From assembly GCA_020724465.1 (NCBI GenBank), contig DYGX01000007.1, positions 177,408 to 241,407 on the forward strand: a stretch of DNA of 64,000 nt. Reading direction: 5' to 3'. The notes under the pieces were generated by a model, which saw only the letters and a list, made by a program, of their open reading frames with translations, made no database searches and had not been told where the DNA came from. Each line of letters opens with the position of its first letter. Positions within the stretch are counted from its first letter, which is position 1. Position numbers and translations under genes: made by a program. Source of the stretch: Thermoflexus sp. (GTDB taxonomy: Bacteria; Chloroflexota; Anaerolineae; Aggregatilineales; Aggregatilineaceae). Shown piece by piece: positions 52,425-63,883 of this stretch.

Positions 52425-53408
52425 TCAACCGGCCAGGATCTTCTCAGGCTGGTAGTCTTCGACGTCGTCTTTTTCCACCAGCTCTTTGCCGGTGAGCTCC
52501 ATAAACACGTCCTCAAGTGTCGGCTCGTGGCCGTTGCGCCCCACCAGCTTCTTGAGGTTTTCCGGCGTGTCGAGCGCCACGATCTTCCCGTCGTCGAGGA
52601 TCGCGATGCGGTCGCAGAGCGCGTCGGCCTCGTTCATATCGTGCGTGGTGATCAGGATCGTCGCGTCGTGCACGTCGCGCAGTTCGTTGACGAACGACTG
52701 CACTTCGAGCTTGGAGCGCGGGTCGAGGCCGGTCGTCGGCTCGTCCAGCAGCAGGAGCACCGGCTGCGTCAGGAACGCCCGCGCGATGGCCACCTTCTGC
52801 TGCATGCCGCGGCTCATGTCTTCCATCGGCGCGGTGTAGCTGCTTTCCTTCAGCCCCAGGCGCTTGAGGATCTCGCGCGCCTTGCGATCCGCTTCCTTGC
52901 CGGAGACGCCGTACAGGCGCGCCCCGTAGAGCAGGTTCTCGCGCGGGCTGAGCTTCTTGAAGAAGGCCGCTTCCACCGACACGCGGTTGATCAGCCGCTT
53001 GACTTGCATCTCGTCCTTCACCACATCGAACCCGAAGACCCGGATGTGCCCGTCGTCCGGCACAAGCAAGGTCGAAAGCAGGCGGATCAGTGTCGATTTA
53101 CCAGAGCCGTTCGGACCAAGCACGCCAAAGATCTCGCGCCGCTCAACGGTGAAGGAAACGTCGTTGACCGCGGTTACCAGTTCCTTGCCGCGCCGCGCCT
53201 TGGGCGCGTGCCCGTTGCCGTTGGCCGGTGCTTCGGTTCCGTTCTGCGCCCGCCCCAGCGGCAGCACCCGCCGCCACCACGGCTCGGACGCCACGTTGAA
53301 GCGCTTGTAGACCCTGTCAACCACCAGGGCCGGCTCGCCGGGAGCAATTCGCAGGTGCGTCGACGTTGTCCTCTTGCTCGTGCTTACCTGGTCGATCTTT
53401 GTTGACAT
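52425..53408 (-). CDS. ABC transporter ATP-binding protein (DrrA-like exporter type)
   Basis: A 327-residue ATPase. Walker A is GPNGSGKST, the signature MSRGMQQKVAIARA and Walker B LLLLDEPTTGLD. An extra Asn/Gly-rich segment of about 40 residues lies before Walker A, between VVDRVYKRFNV and TAVNDVSFTVE. ATG 53408 is used because GAGGA is 9 nt upstream; a start at 53441 lacks a ribosome binding site. The stop overlaps the permease start region. Homologues export antibiotics, lipids or polysaccharides. It is preceded by a leader with two terminators. Confidence 0.9.
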   Translation of the reverse strand: MSTKIDQVSTSKRTTSTHLRIAPGEPALVVDRVYKRFNVASEPWWRRVLPLGRAQNGTEAPANGNGHAPKARRGKELVTAVNDVSFTVERREIFGVLGPNGSGKSTLIRLLSTLLVPDDGHIRVFGFDVVKDEMQVKRLINRVSVEAAFFKKLSPRENLLYGARLYGVSGKEADRKAREILKRLGLKESSYTAPMEDMSRGMQQKVAIARAFLTQPVLLLLDEPTTGLDPRSKLEVQSFVNELRDVHDATILITTHDMNEADALCDRIAILDDGKIVALDTPENLKKLVGRNGHEPTLEDVFMELTGKELVEKDDVEDYQPEKILAG

Positions 53409-53460
53409 TGCTGCAGTCCTCATACGGTTGCGTCTTCTCATGTCCTTCGGGTTGGCGGCT

Positions 53461-53495
53461 GAAAGAAAAAGCCGCGAGCTGGGTGCCCACGGCTT
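53461..53495 (-). terminator. Second leader terminator upstream of the ABC ATPase
   Basis: On the minus strand an AAGCCG/CGGCTT stem (53490-53495 with 53469-53474) encloses a small TGGG/CCCA helix, followed by TTTTTCTTTC. It lies about 53 nt before ATG 53408 and after the first terminator, so transcripts reaching the exporter must pass both. Confidence 0.55.
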
Positions 53496-53531
53496 CGGGT
53501 GCGCAGACTCCGGATCGGAGCGTGCTGCAAC

Positions 53532-53558
53532 AAAAAACCGCGGGCGCTGCGCCCGCGG
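53532..53558 (-). terminator. First, strong intrinsic terminator of the leader
   Basis: Perfect GC palindrome with 10-bp arms CCGCGGGCGC / GCGCCCGCGG (53538-53558), followed on the minus strand by TTTTTT (53537 to 53532). It starts about 25 nt after the leader ORF stop and 124 nt before the ABC ATPase start. Confidence 0.9.
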
Positions 53559-53583
53559 CTGGATTGATCAGGTCAGTGATCGC

Positions 53584-53682
53584 CTACCAGCGAACAGGCG
53601 CAATGCGACAAGGCACGGGCGCGAACATATCGGCGCCGCGACGAATACGAACAGTACTAAGAAGTACGATGTAGTTGGGCAT
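53584..53682 (-). CDS. Short leader ORF (32 codons) before the ABC exporter
   Basis: Codons run from ATG 53682 to TAG 53584-53586 on the minus strand. AAAGGAG (53700 to 53694) lies 11 nt upstream and GGAAGG closer in. A consensus-like promoter precedes it and an intrinsic terminator follows, as in peptide-leader attenuators. The peptide starts MPNYIVLLSTVRIRRG and ends RIAPVRW. It has Arg-X-Arg (RIR), the kind of charged motif on which macrolide-bound ribosomes arrest; this is only a resemblance. No known family; it could instead be an independent small protein or an sRNA. Confidence 0.6.
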   Translation of the reverse strand: MPNYIVLLSTVRIRRGADMFAPVPCRIAPVRW

Positions 53683-53689
53683 TGCGCCT
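53596..53689. repeat. Long-range inverted repeat within the leader
   Basis: AGGCGCAATGC (53596-53606) and its perfect complement GCATTGCGCCT (53679-53689) lie 72 bp apart. In the minus-strand RNA the right arm contains the leader ORF start codon and the left arm lies in its codons 25-29, so pairing would hide the start codon; a translating ribosome would melt or prevent it. This is the classical form of a translation-dependent switch. Confidence 0.75.
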
Positions 53690-53715
53690 TCCACTCCTTT
53701 CGTAGGCTAGAGGAC

Positions 53716-53745
53716 AGTGTATCACGCCCTCGAAACGTTTGTCAA
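53716..53745 (-). promoter_or_regulatory. Promoter of the leader and ABC exporter operon
   Basis: On the minus strand TTGACA (53745 to 53740), 18 bp, TACACT (53721 to 53716) with an extended TG upstream of the -10 box (TGATACACT). It is about 34 nt upstream of the leader ORF start. Confidence 0.8.
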
Positions 53746-53823
53746 GATGGGAAAAAGATCCTGTCCACGAAACCGGTAGATGCGCCGCTATCACATTACG
53801 GGATGCCCCGGCCAGCCCGCTGC

Positions 53824-54834
53824 TCACTTTTCGGCGTCCGGCGGCAGCGCGGCAGGCGGCATGGCAGCGGGCAGACCGGCCAGCGGCGTCGCGGTGAGAA
53901 CGGCGCGGCGAATCGCCTGGCTGGTGGCTTCCGCGGCGAAGGCCCCAATCGCGCTGATATTGGCCCGGCCAGCCGTGCCCGTCGCCAGCGCGAAGATGGT
54001 GTCGCCATCGTGCAGCGTGTGCGAGGGGCGAATGGCGCGGGCCAGCCCGTCGTGGGCCATTTGTGCCATCTTATTCGCTTCCTCTTTGGTGAGCTGCGCG
54101 GTGGTTGCCACCACGCCGATCACCGTGTTCGAGGTCACGCCTTCCGGCAGCACAAGCGCCGACGCGGCGCGCAGCAAGTTGAGCGCCCCAAAGAACGCCT
54201 CGCTATCCGGCGTCTGGCGCATCCCCGCCAGGATCGTCCCATCTTCGGCGATCACGTCCCCGGCAGCGTTGACCACCATCAGCGCGCCGACCAGCAGCCC
54301 GTCGCCCAGATCGATCACCGCGCTGCCCAGACCGGATTTGGTCGCCAGCAGCGGCCCCATCGCCATGCCGATCCGCGCCCCGGCCCCCGCGCCGACACAC
54401 CCCTCAGCGACCGGCTCGGAGCTGGCCGCCTGGCAGGCGCGGTAGCCGAATTCCGCGTCGGGCCGGATCGCGGCGCTGCCGACATCCAGATCGAAGATGA
54501 TCGCGGCGGGCACGATGGGCACCTTTGCCACGCGCGTGTCATACCCAACGCCCCGCTCTTCCAGCCAGCGCATCACACCGGCGGCGGCGTCCAGGCCAAA
54601 GGCACTCCCGCCGGACAGAAGAACCGCGTCGACATGCTGCACCAGGTGCATCGGGCGCAGCAGGTCCGTTTCGCGCGTGCCGGGCGCGCCCCCGCGCTGG
54701 TCCACCCCGCCGACCGTGTTCGGGGGGCACAGCACCACCGTGCAGCCGGTTGGCCCGTCGAGATTGTGAGCATGCCCGACCCGGATCCCCGGAATGGCCG
54801 TCAGCGTCGTATTGGTATTGGTCGTATCGGTCAT
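53824..54834 (-). CDS. P1-family (DmpA-like) N-terminal nucleophile peptidase
   Basis: A 336-residue protein of the S58/DmpA aminopeptidase group. Typical signatures: IPGIRVGHAHN at the start, GCTVVLCPP, DAVLLSGGSAFGLDAAAGVMRWLEERG, and the segment GCVGAGAGARIGMAMG; the nucleophile for autoprocessing would be Ser or Thr in VLPEGVTSNTVIGVVATTA. Such enzymes cleave themselves and then remove N-terminal residues from peptides. ATG 54834 follows AAGGGA; an earlier start at 54894 is near the coaX promoter and is less likely. Confidence 0.85.
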   Translation of the reverse strand: MTDTTNTNTTLTAIPGIRVGHAHNLDGPTGCTVVLCPPNTVGGVDQRGGAPGTRETDLLRPMHLVQHVDAVLLSGGSAFGLDAAAGVMRWLEERGVGYDTRVAKVPIVPAAIIFDLDVGSAAIRPDAEFGYRACQAASSEPVAEGCVGAGAGARIGMAMGPLLATKSGLGSAVIDLGDGLLVGALMVVNAAGDVIAEDGTILAGMRQTPDSEAFFGALNLLRAASALVLPEGVTSNTVIGVVATTAQLTKEEANKMAQMAHDGLARAIRPSHTLHDGDTIFALATGTAGRANISAIGAFAAEATSQAIRRAVLTATPLAGLPAAMPPAALPPDAEK

Positions 54835-63564: not shown

Positions 63565-63638
63565 GCCGACGTAGCTCAATACGGCAGAGCAAGCGCCTTG
63601 TAAGCGCTCGGTTATGGGTTCAAGTCCCATCGTCGGCT
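63565..63638 (+). tRNA. tRNA-Thr (anticodon TGT)
   Basis: Acceptor stem GCCGACG / CGTCGGC (63565-63571 with 63631-63637), discriminator T. The anticodon stem AGCGC / GCGCT encloses loop CTTGTAA with anticodon TGT (63599-63601), which reads ACA. T-loop GGTTCAAGTCC is normal. CCA is not encoded. Confidence 0.93.
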
Positions 63639-63701
63639 CTGGGGAGAGCATCCCCTCAGGGTGCGCCCGGTGAGCACGAAGAAGCCTTAACAAATGTAGA
63701 T

Positions 63702-63787
63702 GGGTCAGTGTCCCGAGCGGCAAAGGGGGCGGACTGTAAATCCGCTGGCAGAAGCCTTCGTAGGTTCGAGTCCTACCTGGCCCACCA
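63702..63787 (+). tRNA. tRNA-Tyr (anticodon GTA)
   Basis: Acceptor GGGTCAG / CTGGCCC (one G-T pair), discriminator A and encoded CCA (63785-63787). Loop CTGTAAA gives anticodon GTA. The long variable arm (GCTGGCAGAAGCCTTCG region) is characteristic of bacterial tRNA-Tyr. Confidence 0.93.
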
Positions 63788-63810
63788 TTCAAGCTCCGGC
63801 TTGGAATTGT

Positions 63811-63883
63811 GCCTACGTAGCTCAGTCGGCAGAGCACGCCCTTGGTAAGGGCGAGGTCATGGGTTCGAATCCCATCGTAGGCT
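63811..63883 (+). tRNA. tRNA-Thr (anticodon GGT)
   Basis: Acceptor GCCTACG / CGTAGGC (63811-63817 with 63876-63882), discriminator T. Anticodon stem CGCCC / GGGCG with loop TTGGTAA, anticodon GGT, reads ACC and ACU. The end of the acceptor is followed by CACCA, so CCA is not encoded in register. Confidence 0.92.

Follow-up and report, generated by a model that had tools for sequence, protein, structure and literature searches.

A putative ribosome-mediated attenuator before an ABC-2 exporter operon and a family of related leaders in Anaerolineae

To our knowledge, most drug-sensing leader attenuators described so far come from Firmicutes, with some in a few further groups; the papers cited here deal with Firmicutes and Proteobacteria. 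The comparisons that follow draw on excerpts of the cited papers. Closest in function to the locus described here is the BmrB leader of bmrCD in Bacillus subtilis, whose ORF must be translated for induction by ribosome-targeting antibiotics and for which rare codons and several ribosome drugs matter (PMC4191407). Both leaders combine a short ORF, alternative stem-loops, and a terminator ahead of an ABC multidrug exporter, drug export being a prediction for the present operon. BmrB, however, has 53 codons, carries its terminator inside the ORF, and precedes the half-transporters BmrC/BmrD (PMC4191407), whereas the present leader has two terminators past the stop codon, none within the ORF, and an ABC-2 exporter downstream, and its scaffold serves many unrelated operons. 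In ErmDL, a drug-stalled ribosome at Arg6-Leu7-Arg8 alters the mRNA fold, and R-x-R is the motif where ketolides and macrolides stall ribosomes (PMC8298421). The present leader likewise encodes a short peptide with R-x-R in its N-terminal half. In contrast to ErmDL, which controls an rRNA methyltransferase and has R-x-R at residues 6-8 (PMC8298421), it places the motif at residue 12, uses intrinsic terminators, and precedes an ABC-2 exporter instead of an rRNA methyltransferase.

A third system, uORFC-6-1 before hflX in Bacillales, is a comparative prediction with 51 representatives (PMC8632094). It likewise has a conserved Arg-Leu-Arg uORF in co-varying RNA, located before a ribosome-rescue gene, but it belongs to another phylum, has one target gene, and is structured wholly downstream of the uORF start; the excerpt describes no pairing that involves the ribosome-binding site and start codon (segment A below) (PMC8632094). 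Antibiotic-controlled attenuation of ABC-F genes is reported in Firmicutes for VmlR and MsrD (PMC9226507, PMC10314930), and some members of the present family also precede ABC-F genes, a likeness drawn by description only.

The kind of control proposed here is therefore already known from BmrB, the erm +X+ leaders, and the RLR uORF before hflX. What is new is the family itself and its host group, the range of unrelated effectors over which it has spread, the use of one scaffold with seemingly exchangeable peptides, and the fixed stall-to-stop distance. The literature searched, mainly without subscription papers and preprints, describes no such leader for Anaerolineae or Chloroflexota. As in other attenuators, a promoter, a Shine-Dalgarno (SD) sequence, and a short ORF stand ahead of the genes, with an intrinsic terminator between ORF and gene. 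On sequence grounds, the leader at 53745-53465 (minus strand) is probably a ribosome-mediated transcription attenuator, in which an inhibitor-induced stall at Arg-Ile-Arg (RIR) would let the end of the ORF (segment B) capture the 5' arm of the first terminator, and the exporter would then be transcribed.

Leader elements and the exporter operon

The window, meaning the whole stretch of 64,000 nucleotides from Thermoflexus sp. that was analysed, is part of a 4.42-Mb genome in 56 contigs that is 99% complete. Leader segments are named A (SD-start), B (last codons to the stop), C and D (arms of terminator 1, T1), and E and F (arms of terminator 2, T2). The features, in order of transcription, are as follows.

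53716..53745, minus strand: sigma-70-like promoter TTGACA-18-TACACT with TG before the -10 box (-35 at 53745-53740, -10 at 53721-53716)
53694..53700, minus strand: Shine-Dalgarno AAAGGAG of the leader ORF, from the sequence
53679..53697, minus strand: segment A, ribosome-binding site and start codon, partner of B (duplex energy, swap test, covariation)
53584..53682, minus strand: leader ORF of 32 codons, MPNYIVLLSTVRIRRGADMFAPVPCRIAPVRW; relatives keep an ORF here
53638..53649, minus strand: codons 12-15, Arg-Ile-Arg-Arg, predicted stall site (+X+ motif) from family statistics
53584..53609, minus strand: segment B, final ORF codons and stop, partner of A or C (swap test, covariation, GCG usage)
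53566..53581, minus strand: small hairpin GATCA..TGATC in the gap between stop and T1; a hairpin stands there in several relatives, by eye
53545..53562, minus strand: segment C, T1 5' arm and flank, partner of D (terminator) or B (antiterminator)
53532..53561, minus strand: T1 (C:D) with T6 tail, -21.4 kcal/mol; covariation
53508..53520, minus strand: small hairpin CTCCG..CGGAG between T1 and T2; conservation by eye only
53465..53496, minus strand: T2 (E:F) with T5 tail, -19.7 kcal/mol; its 5' arm E can pair with D
52425..53441, minus strand: ABC ATPase of an ABC-2 (DrrA-like) exporter, PF00005
51580..52428, minus strand: ABC-2 permease, PF01061
50760..51539, minus strand: class-I SAM methyltransferase, third gene, PF13649

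The promoter, SD, 32-codon ORF, both terminators, and the ATPase, permease, and methyltransferase genes named in the earlier note were all found, all on the minus strand. So was its 11-bp perfect inverted repeat (AGGCGCAATGC / GCATTGCGCCT), which pairs the ORF start with late codons and has its second copy on codons 26-29. The ORF as listed includes a 4-codon GTG extension, and the ATG start is preferred since the SD fits it. T1 begins 23 nt past the stop codon. The best A:B duplex, formed by the repeat and further pairs, has -27.8 kcal/mol, compared with -28.9 for B:C (3' part of the ORF with the 5' arm of T1) and -22.1 for D:E (3' arm of T1 with the 5' arm of T2). Compared with 200 dinucleotide shuffles, the leader has the more stable fold (z -4.5), and the region has no excess of terminator-like sites (2 found against 1.6 in shuffles, sd 1.5). 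Because a terminator pair is unremarkable in this GC-rich stretch, the case rests on comparison. Sequence and comparison together establish the promoter, SD, ORF, T1, T2, and operon, and the complementarities A:B, B:C, C:D, and D:E.

Only one promoter-like site, the leader's, lies within 52900-54200 (1 found against 0.1 expected). This count bears on the alternative that the locus produces a free small RNA or a free small protein and that the exporter has its own promoter. Although a short transcript might end at either of the two strong terminators, near 53532 or near 53465, a second promoter-like site ahead of the ATPase is absent from that interval, and the leader stands upstream of many unrelated operons. 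A free protein also fits poorly with a very variable N-terminal peptide and a B segment that follows RNA pairing and is explicable by pairing needs alone (GCG in 95/96 leaders). We regard a free product as very improbable.

The ATPase has its best NCBIfam match in TIGR01188 (drrA), at 257 bits, under the cut-off of 312, and the nearest named record, a MAG of Anaerolinea sp., encodes an ATPase with 97% identity to that of the window. In 20 named loci, the permease accompanies the exporter in 20/20 and the methyltransferase in 11/20, which places the latter outside the conserved core. The methyltransferase matches general class-I models only, and an rRNA (Erm-like) model is absent among the matches listed. 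The earlier suggestion of a resistance set is thus unsupported as far as the methyltransferase is concerned. An exporter pair 49% identical to the window's (L050) lies on a contig labelled Woesearchaeota, through transfer or mis-binning. Elsewhere in the window, three consecutive tRNA genes occupy 63565-63883 (plus strand).

Distribution of the leader family and the genes behind it

Relatives of the leader were found via the exporter protein and RNA covariance models. Searching 61 relative genomes with the window ATPase gave 27 best ortholog loci (L003-L029), of which 4 are cut by a contig end ahead of the leader and 23 are testable. An ORF-plus-terminator leader is present in 22 of these 23, with L023 the sole exception; each comprises an ORF with SD, a TTGCGCC-like segment near the stop, and one or two terminators. 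The leader of L029 lies about 1 kb upstream of its ATPase, and a further gene or a long gap separates leader and ATPase in L015, L017, and L019-L021. Conservation in relatives was the point on which the earlier note had staked its idea, and the idea passed: the leader recurs in 22/23 loci and the competing pairings co-vary. In genome G010 (L104 / L043), a 339-residue gene, putatively RIO-kinase-like, lies between leader and exporter.

Covariance model R1, built on 23 leaders, matched 38/61 relatives (E<=1) and 60/400 genomes of the phylum (E<=0.05), counts at weak E-values including some chance matches such as L121. Model R2, built on 54 leaders, matched 193/396 genomes of the class at E<=0.001, 108/234 of those of good quality, and 136/223 genera. 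Three checked members (L140, L143, L145) come from outside the class, and the cultured Anaerolinea thermolimosa has a leader (L048) without R-x-R. We read 64 model matches and 80 further loci and kept 140 distinct SD-bearing peptides, including those of L024 and L027, which were added by hand; L027 was recognised by its ORF and terminators, its genome (G037) giving no covariance-model match. L121, a weak match without an SD-bearing ORF, was rejected as a false positive, L119 was set aside for want of an SD, L142 has no T1 under the rule used, and four further model matches on the wrong strand or overlapping were dropped.

A typical copy consists of a promoter, an SD, an ORF mostly of 20-36 codons, T1, and often T2. 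Promoter matches of at least 10/12 precede the ORF in 98/137 leaders (1.8 expected), and T1 is present in 61/62 leaders examined. SD-bearing ORFs occur in 61/64 model matches examined, and B lies inside the ORF in 123 leaders, in the same frame in 117 of them. By these comparative data, the leader family is real, far beyond chance. A conserved structured RNA ahead of transporters might also be a ligand-binding riboswitch or a protein-binding leader in which the ORF is incidental. Such a reading is at odds with the frequency of the SD-bearing ORF, with the frame of B, and with a motif conserved at the peptide level, and Rfam 15 returned three tRNAs only and no leader family for the window at gathering scores, and no match for seven leader loci at E<=1; we consider it scarcely credible.

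In its own genome, a DNA search with the window leader returned the leader itself and one 35-nt match only. A weaker second model match (L002, G000:C50:1074-1179, minus strand, E 0.0015) has a TATACT box and a possible 15-codon ORF with no clear SD that ends before the GTTGCGCC segment, followed by a T1-like hairpin and a GNAT-like protein; if real, it would have B outside the ORF.

The genes behind the leaders were assigned by a Pfam scan of 64 of the 77 first downstream proteins, 13 short or doubtful ORFs being left out (L167, L168, L169, L178, L186, L189, L191, L194, L200, L203, L207, L223, L224). The 64 proteins yielded ABC_tran in 32, ABC_membrane in 23, Acetyltransf_1 (GNAT) in 19, HAD in 5, ABC2_membrane in 2, and RsgA in 1. 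As background, 48 other window genes, picked by ORF length with the exporter operon left out, gave at most one each of ABC_tran and GNAT among the families listed, the 25 commonest of 65. In coarse classes, the 140 leaders precede ABC-2 exporters (48), GNAT genes (43), MsbA-like ABC exporters (35), HAD genes (4), one ABC-F gene, and 9 unclassified genes, each class being the best tblastn match to 11 hand-labelled proteins, by which single labels may be wrong, and the GNAT labels of L113 and L128 being given without a Pfam basis. The protein of L204 passes the NCBIfam cut-off for ribosomal-protection ABC-F (463 against 380); for the L116 protein, whose first 60 residues match nothing in Pfam, the ABC-F label rests on likeness to L204. 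That these genes span efflux, acetylation, and ribosome protection suggests that the leaders share translation inhibitors as their signal. Two or three GNAT-like genes stand in tandem after the leader at L123, L126, L127, L131, L132, L137, and L149. The first downstream protein of L219 (G501:C142) matches RsgA, a ribosome-assembly GTPase.

Competing pairings and the proposed switch

Pairing was assessed by a swap test, in which the mean duplex energy of segments with their own partners is compared with that of partners taken from other leaders (5000 permutations, floor p=2e-4); neither this nor the motif tests below carry a phylogeny correction, apart from peptide clustering. Own partners pair better for B:C (-22.4 against -18.9 kcal/mol, 61 leaders), A:B (-21.3 against -18.3, 61 leaders), and D:E (-20.6 against -15.5, 48 leaders), each at p=2e-4, in contrast to the negative control A:C (-12.2 against -12.4, p=0.80). 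The B-C complementarity spans about 16 pairs. In single leaders, B:C is better than with shuffled B (p<=0.05) in 36/61, and A:B likewise. Covariation scores also exceed those of shuffles, reached in 0/500, for A:B (0.167 against 0.103), C:D (0.356 against 0.209), and B:C (0.243 against 0.195), in an alignment that was fitted to A:B and C:D, and so leans to them, and was not fitted to B:C. Alignment cells for B:C pair in 83.8% of cases, against 80.4% in shuffles and no more than 62% after sliding; of five covariation measures for B:C, two fail to beat shuffles. By eye, the remote members L025, L027, and L047 keep B:C despite changed letters; it reaches -27.0 kcal/mol in L047 and in L025 is not better than with shuffled B (p=0.77). 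Judged from these data, the complementarity for a mutually exclusive antiterminator (B:C) involving the ORF is present, on mixed covariation measures.

The earlier note had proposed a switch between alternative structures. Its A:B pairing is real and co-varies, and the decisive antiterminator, B:C, was missing from that account. With B:C added, the leader would work as follows. Without translation, A:B would form and T1 with it; under unhindered translation, the ribosome at the stop codon would cover B, and T1 would again form. With a ribosome held at codons 12-14 and some 60 nt between its P site and the stop, B would stay accessible, and because a ribosome at the stop covers B and one stalled early does not, only the early stall is predicted to give read-through. 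At the RIR stall, Ile13 would occupy the P site, like Leu7 in ErmDL (PMC8298421). The leading edge of the stalled ribosome would not reach B, and behind it there would be barely enough space for another ribosome to initiate on A. Stalled at codon 13, the first ribosome does not itself cover A, which would be kept from B either by that ribosome or by a second one loading behind it. With B free and A blocked, B:C could form before D is made. Once free, D could pair with E and weaken T2; this is the least supported step, and the D:E complementarity could stem from duplicated terminators.

Folding of the window leader at equilibrium gives T1 a probability of 0.98 untranslated, 0.17 under an early stall, and 0.98 with the ribosome at the stop. 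The full on/off pattern appears in only 26/133 leaders, the window's among them, and the mean T1 probability under early stalling is 0.72, because T1 is very stable. Equilibrium folding was rejected as proof of the switch on this count, and a kinetic advantage of B:C, a trp-like competition, must be assumed given the stability of T1. In transcripts cut before D, the effect is modest: the C-B pairing has a probability of 0.72 with an early ribosome, compared with 0.42 untranslated and 0.50 with B shuffled. T2 changes little, with mean probabilities of 0.78/0.62/0.73 across states (n=95), and in the window, it is formed in none of the states at equilibrium.

The predicted sensor peptide and its R-x-R motif

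The N-terminal part of the peptide would act as the sensor, and the earlier hunch that RIR is a +X+ stall motif is borne out statistically, stalling itself being predicted. Of 131 peptides, 36 have R-x-R in their variable part (9.4 expected from shuffling within each peptide) and 41 have R/K-X-R/K (15.5 expected), the window having RIR. R-x-R is the most over-represented residue-pair pattern tested (gaps 0-3). Arginine pairs at other spacings are at expectation in the same peptides (observed/expected: gap 0, 12/10.0; gap 2, 11/8.6; gap 3, 5/8.2; gap 4, 7/7.9; gap 5, 4/7.1). The excess persists among representatives of similarity clusters (29/99 against 7.7 expected) and among leaders beyond the first 61-genome sample (20/97 against 5.3), which answers the worry that R1 had been trained on R-x-R leaders. 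The motif also has a preferred place. Counted from the peptide end, the first Arg is at 20-22 residues in 25/36 (18% expected) and at 21 in the window, and the motif is positioned more consistently relative to the end (SD 1.7) than to the start (SD 2.6); it begins at residue 12 of 32 in the window and at a median of residue 11 in the family.

R-x-R is spelled in 32 distinct codon triplets across the 36 leaders and is thus kept as peptide. In B, by contrast, 95/96 leaders use GCG for Ala, which indicates that this segment is kept as RNA. The near-uniform Ala codon fits RNA pairing better than a peptide signal, on which ground an arrest at the C-terminal RIAP/RSAP was rejected.

Because the RNA logic requires merely a ribosome upstream of B, any delay before B might open the switch, with the peptide sequence of minor importance; the great diversity of the sensor peptides agrees with such a general slowdown sensor, as does BmrB, which answers several ribosome-targeting antibiotics (PMC4191407). 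It accounts less well for an R-x-R conserved as residues in many spellings at a fixed distance from the stop, and for its tie to one effector class. R-x-R is present in 27/48 leaders of ABC-2 exporters against 10/92 others (Fisher p 2.5e-8), in 20/39 against 9/60 by clusters (p 2e-4), and in 10/18 against 10/79 outside the first sample (p 2.6e-4), all with phylogeny ignored. A sensor indifferent to sequence is therefore unlikely, although 21/48 ABC-2 leaders are without R-x-R, so the motif is not universal.

The pairing logic of trp-type attenuation would serve an arginine-starvation leader equally well. There, as in trp- or his-type leaders, the ribosome would wait for Arg-tRNA (or, more generally, for a scarce amino acid), and the window ORF does have Arg at codons 12, 14, 15, 26, and 31. 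Across the family, however, enrichment is confined to one-residue spacing, with RR, RxxR, and RxxxR near expectation, and Arg codons are scarce ahead of B in most other leaders. The genes downstream are exporters, GNATs, HAD, and ABC-F, with no arginine genes, and the run of regulatory codons and cognate biosynthetic genes typical of trp/his leaders is lacking. Starvation sensing is considered quite improbable.

For the leaders with R-x-R, the best guess, by analogy with the ketolide and macrolide stall motif (PMC8298421), is a macrolide-like, tunnel-binding inducer as the trigger of the attenuator; relatives with other sensor peptides would respond to other inhibitors. We lean, by a narrow balance, towards a phylum-specific modular attenuator, in which one scaffold (A-B-C-D, often -E-F) stands over efflux, acetylation, and ribosome-protection genes of Anaerolineae and carries interchangeable N-terminal arrest peptides suited to each effector. 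R-x-R would then go with ABC-2 exporters, and other sensors with GNAT arrays and MsbA-like exporters. With exchangeable arrest peptides on one scaffold, the class would form a natural library of uncharacterised antibiotic-dependent arrest peptides with a standard RNA readout, offering many short candidates of fixed geometry, with roughly 20 codons between stall site and stop. Such a family, spanning a class of Chloroflexota, would mean that ribosome-based antibiotic sensing is standard in mostly uncultured environmental bacteria, and its leaders would indicate which genes they deploy against translation inhibitors.

A different pattern appears at the same distance from the end in leaders of MsbA-like exporters without R-x-R (L160, L161, L162, L165, L175, L196, and similar ones). 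These have Phe 20 residues from the end in 12/28 and Pro 17 residues from it in 9/28, as in IFTTP and FFIP, which is possibly the arrest motif of a different drug.
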